Shown here one piece after another: positions 1,150 to 56,529 of a stretch of DNA of 64,000 nt. The DNA comes from Zarea fungicola (Eukaryota; Ascomycota; Sordariomycetes; Hypocreales; Cordycipitaceae): the NCBI GenBank assembly GCA_900169235.1, contig FWCC01000224.1, positions 1 through 64,000 of the forward strand, read 5' to 3'. The notes under the pieces are model-generated. The model was not told where the DNA came from and ran no database searches. It saw only the letters and a program-made list of their open reading frames with translations. Both the position numbers and the translations under genes were made by a program. The number at the start of each line of letters is the position of its first letter. Position 1 is the stretch's first letter.

Positions 1150-2667
1150 ATGCAAGGCAGCTCCATTATCGCAAATGAAGATGCCCCAATAATAAAGGGG
1201 CATGAATATGCACCAAGGCGGCGCATGACAGACCACCTGAGCGCCGACTCCGACACAACGGGCCTCGCCATTTCCTTCCCTCTCAGCATCTCCAACCAGC
1301 AAAAGAGCGACACAGGTTCCTGCAGGCTGGAAAAAACAAATACAACCCCTTCAATAACGTCGCAGCGCCCGCATGCTTCTCATCTAGCCACCAAACTCAC
1401 CGACTCCGACTCATCATCCCCGGCCCCCAAGCCGTCCTTGCCGCCGGTGGACTCTCCCACAGCGGTCGCCCAAGCTAGACAAGGGTCGCGCGACATTCCT
1501 CCACAGCCCACTAATAACAACCTTTCTCCTGGCCTCGACACTCCTGACCTCTCTTCACCTTGTCAAGAATCAACTTGGTCACATTACGCTGGCCGTCTTC
1601 GTACCATCAGTCAACTACAGTCGCCCACAATCTACACGACGCCTGCTCCAAGAACCCGCCCCACGCGAGAGTCGTCACCAGCCACCTCAATAAGACGGTC
1701 CACACCAACGACGACACCAAGCTCCTCAACGCTTTCCTTTATTGCCTCGAAAATGTCAGTCTTCAAGGCCTTGCGATCGCCCTCCGTCCCGGGCGCGGAC
1801 TGCGGGAACGAACTCATTGACCTGGACATTGAGGCTGCCCTCTTCCCAGGCGGTGCCGCCCATGAAGGACAGGCTTTCTCGCCTGCCGCCTACAAGAACC
1901 TCCAGATGAACGCCGTCGGGCTGCTACATCGCTTCCAGGCGGCCTATCAAAGTCAAACGATTGAGTTCCGTACAACAAAAGCGGAGAAGGAGGCGCTCGA
2001 AGACGAAAAGAGCGAGGCACAGACGAGGGCACAGCACGCCAAGCTGCAGCTGGAAGAGGTTTCCCGCAAGGCAGCTGAGAAGGAGGCCGCTCTGCAGGCT
2101 TACATTGAAGAGCTGCAGCGTGAGAATAGAGCACTGACACAAGACCGGCAATCAAGAATGAGCCGCGTGGCGCCCTCGGTGGTGTCCACCCTGTCCGAGG
2201 ATCTCGGCGCGGAAGAGGACCAGTCAAACAAGATGTGGCGCCGCAGCGTCGATACATTCAAGACGGAGACGGGCTCCGATACAGACGAGGAGAGCGTCGC
2301 CGATGCGAGCATCTTCTCGCGCTCACGAAGCCCTACGACAGCGACAGCCATTTCCGAAATCAGTCCCGTGGAGCCAGTCTCACGTAGCCGGCTCTCACTG
2401 CCGGCACCGTCCCTTGCAGTCGCTGCCCCCTCGCACCAAAAACCTCAGCAAATGACTGCTTTCCGCAAACTCATGAAGGGCATCGCAGGCGAGACAGAAG
2501 TCCGCATTGTCACAGAGTGCAATAACTGCCACGGCCAGGACGCCAGTGTGGCTTGGGACACGGCGGGTCTCATGCGGGATGAGAACCGCGGCCTCAAGGA
2601 GCGAGTGACCGAGCTGGAATCGGCGCTCGAAGGGGCTCTGGATGTAGTCAATGGGCTGCACCTATAA
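1150..2667 (+). CDS. Conserved coiled-coil protein of unknown function
   Basis: A single-exon frame of 505 codons plus stop. The first 200 residues are Ser/Thr/Pro-rich and disordered. A more ordered part begins at an in-frame ATG at 1753 (residues start MSVFKALRSPS) that has an A at -3; this may be the true start, giving about 304 residues. It is followed by a long heptad-like coiled coil rich in E, K, Q and A at about residues 275-335 of the long form, an acidic serine-rich linker, and a C-terminal block with a short CNNCHG motif and a second predicted helix ending at the stop. I recognise no catalytic domain. The composition suggests a cytoskeletal or scaffold protein of filamentous fungi, but this is inference. 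The upstream neighbour is unknown; the downstream gene is convergent. Confidence 0.6.
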   Translation: MQGSSIIANEDAPIIKGHEYAPRRRMTDHLSADSDTTGLAISFPLSISNQQKSDTGSCRLEKTNTTPSITSQRPHASHLATKLTDSDSSSPAPKPSLPPVDSPTAVAQARQGSRDIPPQPTNNNLSPGLDTPDLSSPCQESTWSHYAGRLRTISQLQSPTIYTTPAPRTRPTRESSPATSIRRSTPTTTPSSSTLSFIASKMSVFKALRSPSVPGADCGNELIDLDIEAALFPGGAAHEGQAFSPAAYKNLQMNAVGLLHRFQAAYQSQTIEFRTTKAEKEALEDEKSEAQTRAQHAKLQLEEVSRKAAEKEAALQAYIEELQRENRALTQDRQSRMSRVAPSVVSTLSEDLGAEEDQSNKMWRRSVDTFKTETGSDTDEESVADASIFSRSRSPTTATAISEISPVEPVSRSRLSLPAPSLAVAAPSHQKPQQMTAFRKLMKGIAGETEVRIVTECNNCHGQDASVAWDTAGLMRDENRGLKERVTELESALEGALDVVNGLHL

Positions 2668-3418
2668 AGCCAGGAGAGCCAAGAAGGCTCCATTTTTGTT
2701 TTGTCTTTTATTCATGTGATATAATGTGGCGTTAAAGGAAAGGGTTTGGACTTTGCCTTTTTTATATATTTAGATGGGGTTGGAAACTACCTACCTATTA
2801 CTAAAGAGCCTGCGGCCATGACCAACGCAGGCTACTGAAAATTATATTAGCTAGAGGTTAACTCTGCAATACATTTATAGCTCATCTTGTGCTGGATAAG
2901 TGCCTTTTAGTAAATGGGTGTTTTTAATGCGCATATACGTTTGTCAACAGCAGGTGATGAACTGCTCAGTAGACTCATTCGTGAGAGTCCATTGAGCCCA
3001 AGTGCTGATTCTATCAAACCTACATCCTTTTTCTGTATCACAGAGTCAAGGTAGACACATTCCGTGGATGGTAATTTCTTTATATTTCCCAAGCACCGTA
3101 GTTTACAAGGGCAGACGCATCTAACAAATGAAAAGCAAAAAGATATATGATATGATGCCCGCAACCCCATTTCTCCCTCGGGATAAACCTCTCCTTGATG
3201 AAGATTTCAGTGTCCGGCCTTTTTCTAAGCATGTACCAAAAGGATGTGGACATTTGCCACCCTCTGGATGCCACCCTATGGCTGCGAAAAAAACAACGTG
3301 CCCCCATTGCTTGACCGAGTTTTTGTACACATTTCCGCGCCCACATGCTGGCTAGTCAAAATGACGTCTTGATTTTCCACACAATTTTCCCTAGCATCAC
3401 CCCGCTCCCTCGTTTTGT
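2668..3418. other. Convergent intergenic region
   Basis: This region lies between the stop codons of two convergent genes and should hold both 3' UTRs. It is AT-richer than the genes. No protein, RNA gene or repeat is supported. Confidence 0.35.
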
Positions 3419-48326: not shown

Positions 48327-51300
48327 CTAATAGAAAATGGCAAACCCTGCAGTTGTTGGCTTATTCAAATAAACGAAGAATATTGATTGCCGCATCCTCT
48401 TCAATGTCAATACACGTTCATGATCTGGGCTCAATCGACTGGTCAGGCGCCTTATACACTCATCCATAAGAGATTTAGCCTTTTCAATACCTCCAGCAGC
48501 CGCCCATGTAAAAGTAATATTCCCCATGATTCGCAGTGTCGTCCTCGTCTCCAATCCAGATACTTCTCCTTGTGCTACTACTTCCTTCATTACTAGATCT
48601 CCAGCTTCCTCAAACCGACCTTGAAGTCGATACGCAAGGGCGAGGATTGCAACACTAAAGATTTTCGATGAATGTGTCGCCGGCAGCGTCCGACATGCTT
48701 CCATCGCTTCTAACCCAACCGCCTCAGCCTCCTTGAACTGCCCCTGGTCACAGTACATCTTTGCTAAGTTGTACATGCTCCCTATGGTTTCCAGGTGATT
48801 AGCCCCAAGTATTTCTGCACGCCTTCCCAGAGCCTGGCCCTCAAGGGCTTTAGCTTCATCCCACCGATTCTGCCGAAGATATATGTTCACTAAGTGACCT
48901 CTGCTTGCTAGCGTGCGTGGATGCTCGGCCCCCAGCGTCCGCACGCATGTCTCTAGCACTTTTGCGCAGAGTTGTCCAGCCTCCTTCAAACTACCTTGCT
49001 CCAAGTAAGCTAACACCAGTGCCTCCATGCTATTCAATGTGTCTAGATGCCCACATCCTGATTTCAACGAGTGAATCATTATCACCATTTTCATGAGCTG
49101 TTGGGCTTCATTCCACCGACCTTTACCCTGTGCAATTTCCGCTAGATCCATTGCGTCAAATAGTAACTCAGGGTATCTATTACCCGACTCCTGCGTGTCC
49201 ATTAATTGCTTTAAAATGACTGTTGCCTCATTCCACCGACCCTGCTCTTGCAGCAAGTGTCCTAATTGGCGTATGTGAATTCGCGTGAGGGGATCTTTGG
49301 CACCTTTCTCTCTTATATGTTGCTGTACAAATTGTCTTTGTAAATCTTCAGCATCCTTGAAGAGACCTTGTCGCGAATAAGCTGACACTAGGAATCTTGA
49401 GCAGAGGACCATATCTGGATGTTTCTGCAACAGCTCTTCATTGGCGTTCTTCAAAACCAGCGTGAAACACTTCACCGCCTCCTTGCGTAACCCGCAGAAA
49501 TACGTACAAGTGCCAAAGCGCCATAAAAAGAGGATTTCCGGCTCCTGTAACGACTCTGCGGGGATGGACATCAAGAGAAAATGACCATGCGATAGGTAGG
49601 GCTTCGATAGGCTAGAGGTCAGAAAGTTCACAGTTGGTAGCAGAACCGCTAACCTCGAGGCCGCCTTGCGAGTCCACTGGGAGAGGCTCTTTTCTCCCTC
49701 CCTAAGCCAATTCCGCATCGCAAGGTGCACAAGCCGATGCATGTCGAGTAATTCCGTTGAACTTGTCATGGATTTCCGTCGAGTGACAAAGGTGTATGCC
49801 GTTAGTGTCCCTATAGCATCCACCTCCTGTTTTCGGGTGTCTTTCGGCGGCAGAAGCGAGCGTGGGATATCTTTCGGGTCGAAGCAGCACATCAGCGATA
49901 AGTACTCCACTGCTACTGGATCTGACCGCTGGATCTCTTTAAATGAAACAAGCCAGGTCGTCGCCACCGGATCTTTGATCTTCTTGTAGCTCCCCTCATC
50001 TCCAAACTCAAAGCTAAGAAGCTCAATAACATCTTCCTCTTGTTCAGCAAGGAGAGCGAGGTATTCCGTTAGTGAGACCCCATTCATCTCAATATATGCA
50101 GCTGCTTGGACAATTGCGAGAGGCAAGCAGCAAAGCTGTGCAACCAGTTCCTGAGCGTCATTGAGCGCCCCTGGTATTTCCTGATCGAGTCGACGGAGTA
50201 GCAGTTGCTGGGCCGTCTCGTCGTCCATCTGTGGAACCTCTTCTCTTAGACCCTGTGACGACAAGAAGACTGCAATTTTCCTGTTCCGTGTCGTGAAAAC
50301 AGTACAGCCATTGCTGTTCTGCGGCACAAATTCGAGCAGTCCACAGGAATCTGATGGCCCAGTACCTCCAGTCCAAACATCAAATTCATCGGCATTGTCG
50401 TAAATTAGCAACCAGCGACCTGCAGACTCCTGACTAAGGTGGCTTTTAACGAGTCGCTTTACATCGGCGCCGTTTGCCACAGCTAGTCCCAGCTTTTCGG
50501 CTGCATCGAGATACGCTTGTTGCATTCGCTCAGCATTGTAGACAGGTATCCAGATCACAGAGCAGTCCGGGTGCTTTGCTCTGGTCCGATATGCGAGCTC
50601 GAGGACTACCTGCGTCTTCCCTACGCCTCCTAGGCCAAAGAGCGACACCTTGGACAGCGGGTCCTCACCAAAAATAACAGTTTCTAGTTTATCCAAAAGG
50701 GCACCGCGCCCGACGAAGCTTGTATTTCTCTCGAATGGAACAGTCCAGCAAGGACGCCTAGAGGTCCCTAAATCTTCGTTAGCAATGGTTTCGACCGATT
50801 CAGGCTTAATAATGTCTAACTTGTTTGTTCTTGATTGGAGTCAATGCTAAATGCCTGTATATTTGTAAGATGAATGCGAATGTAACGCTAAAGAGTCTCC
50901 TTACTTGGATAATAGAGGCAAAATTGTTTGGCGTTTTGTCTATTCTAGTGTTTTAGTTGAAATTCTATAAGAATCTGCTCAGGGAAATTGCAGCACACCT
51001 TGCTTCTGGCTGAGATTTAATACACAATCTCTCACGCGTGATACTTGCGCTGTATGATCAAGATAGCTCTCCGTTGCGGCCTCCATGGCTCCCTGTTCCT
51101 TGTACTCCGCTAAGCCAATGCCGTCAAGGCCACGATCAACGTTGAATCGAAAGTAGCGCTTCAAATCGAAATGTTGTCTCCATCTAGCAATAAAGCGCGC
51201 CTCTGTTGTTGCGGTTTCAGTTGCCATTTTCATAAAAGTTTTGGCCAATTTCAGCATGTTGTCCTCAATCGCCTTCTGACTGACACGACCGGTTCCCAGT

Positions 51301-52101
51301 GATATAAAGCATTTAACTTGAGGCATCAGCTCCGCTGTCTCCTCGCACCAAATATTGTTGCCTCCCTTTCGACCTGTTCGACAGGTTTATTTGCTCCGAG
51401 GGCACCATCGACGTACTGGCGAGCGCCAATGCGAACTGGGTCGAAAAAGCCAGTGGCGGCCGAGGTTGCAAGAGCGGCCTCCAAAATGGTCACGCCAGCG
51501 CTCGTCTTACTTGGTAGAGTATAGCTTCGCAGCCTCGCAACGTCGGCCGTTTCCTTTGCAGTGGCGCAAACAAAGACCCTGCAGGCTCGGCTTTTCTCAT
51601 CGTCGAAAGCGTCCGTCGGCGATGCGCCGCTGCGAATAATGACTTGCTCAACGGCGGCCTGGAGCTTTTTTGAATCGAATTTTGCTTTAACGCGCCCGCG
51701 GAAAGAGAGCGGCAATTTGTTGGCTCTCTTTTCGAATATGCCCTCCATCAGCTCGTTATAGGCAGATATGCACTCATCAACGTCCATCTCGAGCCGCCCC
51801 AGCATTATGGCAATGAGACTGACGGGGTTAGCCCCAAATTTTGGATATAAAACGCTTGTAAGGGGTGTATTTTATCAGCTTACCCTCCCGTGCTAGTACC
51901 TCCGATCAGGTCAAAAACTTGGCAGGGCTTCAGACAAGTGTCAAGACGTTCTGCGCGACGGGCATGATTCAGCCGCGCCATGATCCCTTTCAAAATAAAC
52001 AGTGTCGTCAAGCCGCGCACACCTCCGCCATCAAGTGACAAGAGGCACAGCCCTTGGGTGTCGACAGGATTTGCTGCATCTCGTTGAATTTCTGTGGACA
52101 T
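48327..52101 (-). CDS. Patatin-NB-ARC-TPR NLR-like protein, apparently frameshifted
   Basis: Minus strand. Exon 1 (51,884-52,101) and exon 2 (from 51,818) encode a patatin phospholipase: oxyanion motif LDGGGVRG, the lipase Ser in GTSTGG at the first splice junction, and the second catalytic residue Asp in YVDGALG. Near 51,351-51,360 the frame is lost by what looks like one missing base in a short A/T run; the family sequence (ELMPQVKCFISLGTG and onward) resumes in another frame and runs to a donor at 50,999. After an unresolved intron region the frame PCWTVPFERN..FVGR leads into NB-ARC (P-loop GLGGVGKT near 50,640, Walker B WLLIYDNAD) and a TPR array to 48,327. The architecture is a known fungal NLR type in incompatibility and defence. 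The next gene upstream is another NLR in the same orientation. Confidence 0.8.
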
Positions 52102-52984: not shown

Positions 52985-55446
52985 CTACCCAGCACCGGAG
53001 ACCATATCCTGCTGCCAATTTTCGATCAACTCCATCGATGATTTGGTAGAAGGATGCTGTAGACCAAAAACACGCTCTCGATCAGAAGCGCAGCGATTCA
53101 TTAAATGAAGCGCCTCTTGAAGACGGTCAAGACGCTTGAGGAGGCACGCTAAGTTGTGCATAATGATAAGCGTATCGGGATGATCCATGCCAAGCATCGT
53201 CTTTGACTTCTCAAACAGCTGCACTTGAAGTTGCTCTGCCTCCTCTAAGCGGCCTTGTTTTGAAAATACCATTGACAGGCTGCTTATAGGGCTTAGCGTA
53301 CCGGAATGATCTTCACCGAGCTTTGCCGTTAGGTTTTCCACGGTTTCTACAAGAAGCCGCTCTGCCTCCTCTAAGCGGCCCTGCTTCAAAAATGCTGATG
53401 CTCGGGCGTTCATGTAACCTAGGGTCTGGAGATGATCTGCACCGAGCGTAGCCTTGTGCATCTCCAGTACGTGTGAGCCAAGCTGCTCTCCTTCCTCTAA
53501 GCGGCCTAGGTTCGAATATATCAATGCTAGGTTGCCCATGTAAACTAGAATTTCAGGATCATCTGCACCGAGCTCTGCCTTCCGTATTTCCAGTACCTGC
53601 TCCTGAAGCCTCCTTGCCTCCTCAAAGCGGCCCTGTTTGACAAATGTGCCTGCTAAACCGAGTGTGTAACTTAGCGTATCGGGATGATCCGCACCATAAT
53701 TTATCTTGCAAGCCTCAATCGCTTGTCCCTGAAGCCTCTCCGCCTCCTCCCAGCGCCCTTGCTTTGCCAAAACTTCGCCCAACAATGATCTGCTGCGGTG
53801 TAGCTCGTAATCAAATCCTGTTGACCTGTTTTTATAGGCTTCTTCTGTTTTGCGAAGCATCTGCTCCGCTATATCGTACTGGCCCTGCTGTAACGCAAAA
53901 TCTGCGCCGTTGTAGAGTAGCTCCGCCCAAGCTTCCGACGCTTCGTCGTCGACCAGTCGATAATTAGCAGCTGCTTGGACGTGTGAAAATAGCTTCCTGC
54001 ACATTGGCCAGGAGTCGATATCTTCGGACGGGAATGCGTCAGCCAACTGCATAACAAACTGCTCCTTGAATGTATCCTGCAGGCCTCCAGCCGCTAGCCA
54101 CTTTCTAGTCGACAACTGTACAAGCCGGTGCATCTCGAATGTATTGCTTTCTTCTCTGAAGGAAATCAGACTAAAGTCCCTGAGAATCTTTACGTCATGC
54201 TCGAATTCAAGTGCATCCAGCTCGCTGGAGCTACTACTGACGATATCGCTGGAGCTTTCCAGTTCGTCATTATGTTCTTCCCCCGACACATTTTGTCCTT
54301 TTGTTGCTTTTTCAGTTGGTCTTAACATCCAATCAGGGATTCCCTGCCGATCAAAGAAACTCATCAGCGAGAGAAGATGGGCTGCCGAGCGGCGTCGATT
54401 GTATATGTGTTCAAACGAGATCTGCCACGTTTTGAGGATGGCATTTGACGCACTTCCATCCCGACGCAAATCGTCATCACTGTACTCTAAAAGCTTGAAC
54501 TTTCCCACATCGCTCTTGTTGAATTCATGCAAGTACCGACCTGGCGACATCCGCGGTTCCATGGCTTGTATGTAGCCAGCCGCCTGACTGATGGCGAGCG
54601 CAATGTGGTCCAAAGCCTGTACTAGCTGTAAGGCGGAATGCTGATCTGAAACTGGACCCAGCCTTTTTTCAAGAAGCAGAAGAGCATCTCTCGTCTCCAT
54701 TGGCCCAATGTCGATAACAGCCGCCCAATTTCCTGTCAATCTACGGGCAAGGCTTCTGTCGCGCGTCGTAACAAGGACGGATCCGTTGGGGCTCTGTGGA
54801 AAATAAGATGCCATCGGCCGGCTGTCTGGTTGATGATCATTGGTACCGTAAAAAACTTCGCTGTCATCAGCGCTGTCTAAAATGATGAGCCATTTGCCAT
54901 TCTGCTCTCTAGACAGCCAATTTCGGACAAGCTCTGGTATATTGGCAGTGGGTTGCTGCCGCCCGTGTATCTTGGCAGTATCGGCGATGCCACGGAGACC
55001 CTCTTCGAGACGTGCTCGAGTCGCGGCATGAATCCAGAATATCCATCTGTCGCTGTGCTTGTCTGCGATCCGATGGGCATATTCGATTGCCAGCTGCGAT
55101 TTGCTATTCCATGTCAGTCTGCCATCCACGCACAACTATGGCGACAGACCTACCCAACGCCACCGAGCCCCACGAGCGCTGTACGGCCTGCTGGCTGGGA
55201 AAATCGTTCGTCGATTCGGTGGAAAATGTCGCCGCGCTCAATGAAGTCGGGGTCCCGAGAGAAGGAAATGGCGGCACAGGGCGGCGGCGGGGGCTCTGGC
55301 AACTCTGATCGGTGTTAGCTGGAAAGGACACTGGAGGCGCCCGGGTTTGAGGTACCTGGCGGGAGCTGCACGCTAATCGACCCAAAGTTCTGCGCCACTT
55401 GAAGTCCGTTATTCTGGCCATCAAAGGAAGCTTCTAGTTGCGCCAT
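52985..55446 (-). CDS. NB-ARC-TPR NLR with N-terminal PP-type amyloid motif (PNT1-like)
   Basis: Three exons on the minus strand: 55356-55446, 55154-55304 and 52985-55103; phases agree and the product is 786 residues. Residues 10-25 read GQNNGLQVAQNFGSIS, a single N-x-G-x-Q-x-A-x-N motif followed by a proline-rich linker, and then the ISFSRDPDFIERGDI leader found before NB-ARC domains of this class. The P-loop GLGGVGKS (residues 76-83) is cut by the second intron just before its lysine; Walker B is WLIILDSADD. About six TPR-like repeats of about 42 residues with closely similar QGRxEEAE units fill the C-terminal 300 residues. Family knowledge: PP-motif NLRs such as Chaetomium PNT1 sense a signal through the repeats, oligomerise, and present the motif as an amyloid seed to a partner. 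The partner candidate is divergent, 215 bp away. Confidence 0.88.
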
Positions 55447-55661
55447 AGATGGTAGTTTGCGTGGGCGAGACCTGGCTATTTACTGATTGCATGTCGGCGA
55501 CAGTAATAGCTTGAAAGTTTGAGGCTGGATGTTTACAGCTGCTAGGTGACCGATGGAGCAGCACGTGATAATATGCACGTCAGCCTCAATGATTCTCTTC
55601 CATTGTCCTGAAGATAAACAAGAGGAACTTCTAAAGTTTGTTTGTCAAGAGTCTTGTCAGC
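55447..55661. promoter_or_regulatory. Shared divergent promoter of the NLR and HeLo-like genes
   Basis: 215 bp between the two start codons, so the pair probably shares control. Besides the E-box at 55,562 a second ACGT core (GCACGTCAG) lies 13 bp further on. No TATA box is clear. Confidence 0.55.
55562..55567. promoter_or_regulatory. CACGTG E-box in the shared promoter
   Basis: Perfect palindromic CACGTG, the site class read by Cbf1-type bHLH factors. It lies 95 bp upstream of the HeLo-like start codon and 116 bp from that of the NLR. Binding is not shown. Confidence 0.5.
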
Positions 55662-56529
55662 ATGGATCCTCTCAGTATTACAGCGGCTGCAGTGGGTATC
55701 GCTGCTCCGACTATTCACTGTGTGCATCTCCTCTTAGAAGACCTCCAGAATATTGTTGATGCGCCAGTGGCAATTGAGAGGTTAACAGCGCAGCTGCTCT
55801 CTGTCGATCATGCGCTTGCCTCACTTCAGGCTGTGACTGCCGAGCAATGGACATATCTTGGTGATGCTGTGCTCCAACAATCGGAGGCTGCAATGAGTGC
55901 ATGCAAAGACTCCTGCGACAAGTTTAGAGCCAAGCTTGGTCGTTGGACACGGCACAGTGACAACGGAGAGTTATCATTGCAGGACCGGGTCATGCTTGGT
56001 GTCTTCAAACAGAAGCACATTGAGCTGATGTCAACACAGTTGCAGCAATACAGTATTACACTTGTATCAGTTGCCAGTATCGCAACCTTGTAAGTAAAGT
56101 CCCTTGGCGTTCCGAAAACAAGCTCTAACTTGTCAAAGACATAGCTGTCTTAAGCAGAACCAGCTAGAGCCAGCCACAATGGCGAACGTATCTGCGAGGG
56201 AAGCAGACATCGCGGCCTCAATTGCAACGGCGGATGATACGCTAGCTGTGGTAGATACTCAGTTAGGAGAGCTTTGTCTTGCAGATGCGGGCGAAGCCGA
56301 GACAGAAACGGATAGGGTTGATGCAATTACCCAGGCTTCAGCGACACGGGTCGCTTTGGGTACGTCTCGCAGCTTGCTGGAAGAATTGCTCTCCCGTGCG
56401 CAGGCTGCAGTGTGGACCGCTTCGCAAGAGAACGGCAAGACAGTAAACAATTTTGGGGGTCAAAATGAAGGTATGCAGATTGGCACCAATTATGGTGCCA
56501 TTAGTGGTATTACATTTGGCAAGAAATAA
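55662..56529 (+). CDS. HeLo-like cell-death effector with C-terminal PP-type amyloid motif (HELLP-like)
   Basis: Two exons, 55662-56089 and 56145-56529, with a GTAAGT...CTAAC...TAG intron; 270 residues. The N-terminus MDPLSITAAAVGIAAPTIHC is the hydrophobic first helix typical of HeLo-like domains, and an all-helical region continues to about residue 235. The last 27 residues hold an amyloid motif: GGQNEGMQIGTNYGAISG, in which N250-x-G252-x-Q254-x-G256-x-N258 fits the pseudo-palindromic PP core and contains an MQIG tetrad like the mammalian RHIM core. In HELLP, PP seeding folds the tail into amyloid and lets the HeLo-like domain act on the plasma membrane. The start was chosen at MDPLSI because the upstream in-frame part has no ATG. 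Cell-death activity is inferred from architecture. Confidence 0.87.

Follow-up and report, generated by a model that had tools for sequence, protein, structure and literature searches.

The locus examined here, within a 64-kb stretch of Zarea fungicola DNA (the window, meaning the whole stretch that was analysed), raises the question of whether two divergent genes that share a short motif form an amyloid-controlled cell-death module. An earlier note had proposed a complete module of this kind, made up of an NLR and a HeLo-like protein on opposite strands. The gene models below were predicted from the sequence for this analysis, and they agree with the divergent arrangement.

52985-55446, minus strand: NLR gene, three exons, 786 aa, NB-ARC/TPR
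55356..55446, minus strand: NLR exon 1, 30 codons plus one base, with the start codon and the PP motif
55372..55428, minus strand: NLR-side PP motif, residues 7-25, SFDGQNNGLQVAQNFGSIS
55154..55304, minus strand: NLR exon 2, a proline-rich linker followed by the nucleotide-binding domain as far as GLGGVG
52985..55103, minus strand: NLR exon 3, the P-loop remainder (KSQ), NB-ARC/NACHT domain, DUF7779 and TPR repeats
55447..55661, no strand: intergenic stretch, 215 bp between the two start codons, presumed to be a bidirectional promoter
55662-56529, plus strand: effector gene, two exons, HeLo-like (PF17111) with a C-terminal PP motif, 270 or 272 aa
55662..56089, plus strand: effector exon 1, HeLo-like domain with a hydrophobic N-terminal segment (from PF17111, hydropathy and a model of homologue P0001)
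56139..56529, plus strand: effector exon 2 (alternative in-frame start 56145), a helical region and the C-terminal tail
56452..56505, plus strand: effector-side PP motif, FGGQNEGMQIGTNYGAIS, followed by GITFGKK and the stop codon

The two NLR introns, of 51 and 50 nt, are both GT-AG. The PP motif takes up most of the short first exon, a CTAAC branch-like site lies in the intron directly after it, and removal of the second intron makes the P-loop GLGGVGKSQ whole. Pfam matches to TPR_10 (4.7e-52), NACHT (2.6e-6), NB-ARC (3.8e-5) and DUF7779 give the NLR the combination of NB-ARC (or NACHT) and TPR that characterizes a PP-type HELLP/PNT1 module, and its TPR-coding DNA contains four copies of a 91-nt repeat spaced at 126 nt, three of which are 68-73% identical to the reference copy. 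Residues 1-205 of the effector match PF17111 (1.6e-14, 54.2 bits against a cut-off of 27.2), a family named PigL_N in the copy of Pfam used and called HeLo-like in a section of PMC9815663. There is a choice of acceptor for its second exon, with a start at 56145 giving 270 aa and one 6 nt earlier, at 56139, giving 272 aa. The longer form reads IATLHSCLKQ at the junction where most of the aligned relatives have IATLHSSLQQ, and we favour it because of this fit; the annotation of the top relative, P0001, resembles the shorter form.

The pair is adjoined by a patatin-type NLR at 48327-52101 (minus strand), in which PF01734, a patatin-like domain matched as two segments (3e-5 and 1.4e-10), lies upstream of NB-ARC/TPR. 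Its frame changes near 51326, where no intron is seen, and the gene may be broken, misassembled or unusually spliced.

The motif that the earlier note quoted for the NLR, GQNNGLQVAQNFGSIS at residues 10-25, is present as quoted. Its counterpart in the effector, GQNEGMQIGTNYGAIS, is indeed at the C-terminus, but residues 250-265 are a likelier position than the proposed 248-263, because the acceptor at 56139 gives the reading that matches most relatives. The other details hold: nine of the 16 positions are identical, the gene models place the motifs at opposite ends of the two proteins (N-terminal in the NLR, C-terminal in the effector), and the core N-x-G-x-Q-x-[G/A]-x-N fits both. The effector has exactly NxGxQxGxN, the PP core according to part of PMC9815663, whereas in the NLR the second Gly is replaced by Ala, a variant that it shares with six listed relatives (QVA in P0047, P0065, P0072, P0076 and P0092, all with a strict core, and QIA in P0063).

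A check with a PP profile, which the earlier note had recommended, gave a mixed outcome. The Pfam model Ses_B, employed for PP in a portion of PMC8086366, falls exactly on both motifs, but neither reaches its cut-off of 23.2 bits; the NLR motif scores 13.8 bits (E 0.055) by hmmscan and 18.2 bits (E 0.169) in a search of its own genome, and the effector motif 10.6 bits (E 0.57) by hmmscan. Since precomputed Pfam lists place PF17046 on only some of the listed NLR relatives (e.g. P0032, P0041, P0050) and on no effector match, we do not treat a Ses_B match above cut-off as defining. Run genome-wide with E values of up to 10 allowed, the profile found the NLR motif alone and missed that of the effector, and is thus too insensitive for counting PP proteins; one below-cut-off match was seen among 14 control genomes.

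The two proteins were also compared directly. Their best local alignment is the PP motif (NLR residues 7-25) with a score of 62, which is reached by two of 2000 whole-protein shuffles and, when shuffling is limited to the two 60-residue termini, a restriction chosen after the fact, by none of 5000 (maximum 39). In a less biased scan of N-termini against C-termini at 21 NLR loci, the window pair scores 62, one other motif pair 60 and the best spurious match 53; a TPR-against-TPR match between the two NLRs of the window scores 75, and the scan missed both HRAM-type pairs described below (C169 and C360), which were found by other means.

This arrangement closely recalls HELLP/PNT1 of Podospora anserina, described in part of PMC7885112 as a HeLo-like protein and an NB-ARC/TPR NLR encoded by adjacent genes, with the PP motif at opposite ends. 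The window pair has the same two adjacent genes, the same HeLo-like effector with a C-terminal motif, the same PP-NB-ARC-TPR NLR and the NxGxQxGxN core; it differs in belonging to another species, in its divergent sequence, in the Ala of its NLR motif core, and in being known here from genes alone. The alignment gives 50% identity between the window effector and P0014 of Podospora pseudocomata, which we infer to correspond to P. anserina HELLP. CgHELLP/CgSBP/CgPNT1 of Chaetomium globosum also resembles the pair in motif and in the architectures of effector and NLR (parts of PMC7885112 and PMC5485727) but has three genes, whereas a six-frame PP-pattern scan of the 64-kb window, which a degenerate motif could escape, returned the two genes and two unrelated frames, with no third PP gene to match the lipase (SBP) gene of that cluster. 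HET-S/NWD2 and HELLF/FNT1 follow the same logic of adjacent genes with an N-terminal NLR motif and a C-terminal effector motif (portions of PMC7885112 and PMC4518210), but their effectors carry paired HRAM repeats rather than a single PP motif, and the window effector has no Pfam match to HET-s_218-289 or HRAM repeats at E up to 1. Nor does its motif fit the PUASM pattern FxGxGxQxxGxGxF, and its domain is HeLo-like and not PNP_UDP. Finally, the mammalian RHIM of RIP1/RIP3 has a G-x-Q-x-[G/A] core in common with the PP motif of the window, a likeness drawn from the motif core and not from sequence comparison, and partial cross-seeding between RHIM and fungal PP is reported in a section of PMC7885112; the window system differs in lacking kinases and in carrying the motif on the executioner itself.

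The relatives of both proteins extend this picture. The effector has 28 homologues, the best of which (Rhypophila decipiens) is 59% identical over its full length, with others in Chaetomium-like and Podospora-like fungi, Gaeumannomyces, Tolypocladium and Trichoderma. A strict NxGxQx[GA]x[NSH] core is present in 15 of these; the 13 others comprise four recognizable variants (P0003, P0006, P0007, P0019), eight short predictions of 149-180 aa that lack the tail (P0018, P0020, P0021, P0022, P0024, P0025, P0026, P0028) and P0017, which has a different C-terminus. NLR residues 1-240 have 887 matches; among the best 120, one of which is the window NLR itself, the strict PP pattern begins within the first 80 residues in 48 and lies deeper in the protein in some others. 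The earlier note had suggested comparing gene order in related genomes, and the pairing of the window genes, which lie 215 bp apart, does have parallels: for at least 10 of the 28 effector matches an NLR of the same species, on a contig of equal length and so apparently the same one, is found by eye among the best 120 of the 887 NLR matches. Two Gaeumannomyces species have consecutive locus tags for the partners (RB597_010317/010318 and RB595_010335/010336). In one pair, P0017/P0122 on a 3.3-kb Rhypophila contig, neither predicted protein shows the motif, and P0122 is labelled partial. Partners tend to have the same motif subtype (permutation p 0.0006) in a set of 10 pairs that comprises the window pair and nine of the ten same-contig pairs, with the motif-less P0017/P0122 dropped. 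We do not use this partner-specific co-variation as independent evidence; it disappears when the six hydrophobic-subtype pairs are taken by themselves (p 0.44), and for the window effector the adjacent NLR comes no higher than fourth of 10, so that the signal may reflect shared ancestry.

We conclude that the window pair is a predicted two-gene PP-type amyloid signalosome of the HELLP/PNT1 kind, with a probability of roughly 0.87. The case is convincing that it represents a further example of a system already described experimentally rather than a new one, and the locus is therefore less exceptional than first rated. The architecture of the complete module that the earlier note envisaged stands, on Pfam matches, homologues and pairing in other species, and it is from this architecture that we infer amyloid control and cell death. 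By analogy with the work on HELLP/PNT1 in sections of PMC7885112, a ligand bound by the TPRs would cause the NLR to oligomerize, and the clustered N-terminal PP motifs would nucleate a RHIM-like cross-beta fold. This fold would then template the same fold in the effector tail, upon which the HeLo-like bundle would rearrange, the hydrophobic N-terminal helix would insert into the plasma membrane, and the cell would die.

A structural model of the homologue P0001, made from an alignment of 23 homologues with the window effector left out, is consistent with such an effector. It has long helices in a helical bundle (mean pLDDT 77.6, pTM 0.48), and its last 30 residues, where the motif lies, extend beyond the bundle with pLDDT below 50, a disordered tail that is predicted for P0001 and not for the window protein itself. 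VIA-align comparison of this model with solved structures returned mainly generic helical bundles and coiled coils, with MLKL absent among the matches listed, an absence that carries no weight against a resemblance of the HeLo-like domain to the four-helix bundle of MLKL. Profile searches of solved-structure sequences gave three matches for the effector (best E 0.16), none a convincing relative, and no match for the PP motif.

The principal competing explanation is that the pair is a degenerate or retired HELLP/PNT1 system, in which the effector has lost its ability to kill or the motifs theirs to seed. The window effector is on a long branch in the tree of its relatives (0.62, against a median of 0.11) and differs at 8 of 62 near-invariant positions, which together make relaxed function possible, and the NLR core has QVA with Ala for Gly. 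However, the reading frames, splice sites, P-loop and motifs of the two genes look intact, other relatives deviate too (P0011 at 9 of 64 positions, P0009 at 5 of 60, P0016 at 5 of 61), and the QVA/QIA core recurs in the six NLR relatives noted above; we consider degeneration unlikely. In the same tree the window effector falls with a set of Sordariales sequences and apart from those of Tolypocladium and Trichoderma (support 90/89). Horizontal transfer of the effector was considered and is not claimed, the long branch weakening this grouping.

The window pair is also not alone in this genome. In the 43.1-Mb assembly (456 contigs), NLR residues 1-346 have 25 matches, several being parts of one gene and three lying in the window, and in 20 stretches examined round the matches outside the window we found three more head-to-head effector/NLR pairs with other motifs and effectors.

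C169 (L032): HET-S-type effector 2121-2963, plus strand; NLR from 1815, minus strand; gap of 305 bp with assumed start codons
C360 (L031): HeLo-like effector from 4814, minus strand; NLR from 5028, plus strand; gap of 213 bp with assumed start codons
C439 (L033): PNP_UDP effector 2480-1287, minus strand; NLR from 2746, plus strand; gap of 265 bp with assumed start codons

The C169 effector has a HeLo domain (PF14479, 2.7e-43) and HET-s_218-289 (8.9e-11), and the N-terminus of its NLR matches the HET-s_218-289 model (0.001). This NLR is 55% identical to that of the window over residues 26-345; the P. anserina partner of HET-S, NWD2, is in contrast a NACHT-WD protein (part of PMC7885112). The C360 effector has PF17111 (4.6e-13) and two FG...QG repeats, with one such repeat in the facing NLR; the repeats have no Pfam match, and by eye we assign them to the HRAM kind, making this a putative HELLF/FNT1-like pair. 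The C439 effector contains a PNP_UDP domain (1.2e-14) and ends NFGNNNSGIQAGNLNGGVNVQL..., and the facing NLR starts MSTNNFAERNSGFEAGTINGPATVEI. A PP-like pattern is present in the tails of 16 (one identical to the query) of the best 120 of at least 2502 homologues of this effector. The named ones are from Beauveria (the best, at 73%), Metarhizium, Pochonia, Lecanicillium and Conoideocrella, and several others of 37 inspected have a different FGNN...QGD tail. We do not claim the combination of a PP-like motif with PNP_UDP as new, because portions of PMC9815663 report HRAM-like and PUASM motifs on PNP_UDP effectors, as well as PP motifs that go with effectors of the pore-forming and of the enzymatic kind. 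Two Sordaria macrospora proteins, P0040 (architecture checked with Pfam) and P0042 (from precomputed domains), combine in a single polypeptide a PNP_UDP domain, then a PP core (residue 415) and finally NB-ARC/TPR; by its predicted domain order, each corresponds to a fusion of what are two separate proteins on C439.

Among other NLR loci, a gene on C58 (L034; 3918-3256, minus strand) encodes a SesA domain (2.5e-34; NACHT_sigma scores 27.2 against a cut-off of 27.6 bits) directly upstream of an NLR on the same strand, possibly forming a sigma-type unit with it.

When the motifs of the four pairs are compared in a 4x4 table, which is descriptive and not blind because the stretches compared were picked by the analyst, every effector has its highest score with the adjacent NLR (window 62, C439 60, C169 45, C360 38), with 0, 0, 0 and 1 of 500 shuffles respectively reaching the score. 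On this basis the genome probably has four parallel amyloid circuits, two of them PP-like. Tentative, when taken as a whole, is the wider proposal of at least four parallel amyloid-gated head-to-head circuits (213-305 bp), in which two PP-like circuits have different executioners (a HeLo-like membrane protein in the window, a protein of nucleoside-phosphorylase fold on C439), partial cross-talk may occur, and related NB-ARC/TPR receptors, such as those of C169 and the window, would have swapped motif and effector together. Between the two PP-like pairs the cross score is 43 whichever effector is taken (z 5.7 and 6.5), well above shuffles, against 60-62 for the adjacent partners; the motifs may thus be similar enough for partial cross-talk, in which a single receptor would activate a pore former as well as an enzyme that consumes nucleotides. 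Together with a C. globosum NLR reported to drive two effectors (a passage of PMC5485727), these cross scores allow that the window NLR signals mainly to another PP-like protein, such as the PNP_UDP protein of C439, with its neighbour as a secondary partner; adjacent partners nevertheless score clearly higher and same-contig pairing recurs in other species, making this quite improbable. That an N/G/Q-rich NLR N-terminus merely resembles an unrelated tail by chance, as a short motif with weak Pfam scores and two successes in the whole-protein shuffles might suggest, we reject on the terminus-restricted shuffles and on homologues that have the motifs at the same ends, many of them on the same contigs.

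Read as a HELLP/PNT1-type signalosome, the window pair enlarges the RHIM-like signalling systems of fungi by a divergent member that looks intact. With its four motif-matched pairs, this genome is a natural system in which to study the insulation of parallel amyloid circuits, and the window and C439 pairs one in which to ask whether a PP receptor can act on an enzyme of phosphorylase fold as well as on a pore-forming protein; if true, cross-talk between the PP-like pairs would link one receptor to membrane pore formation and to nucleotide consumption.
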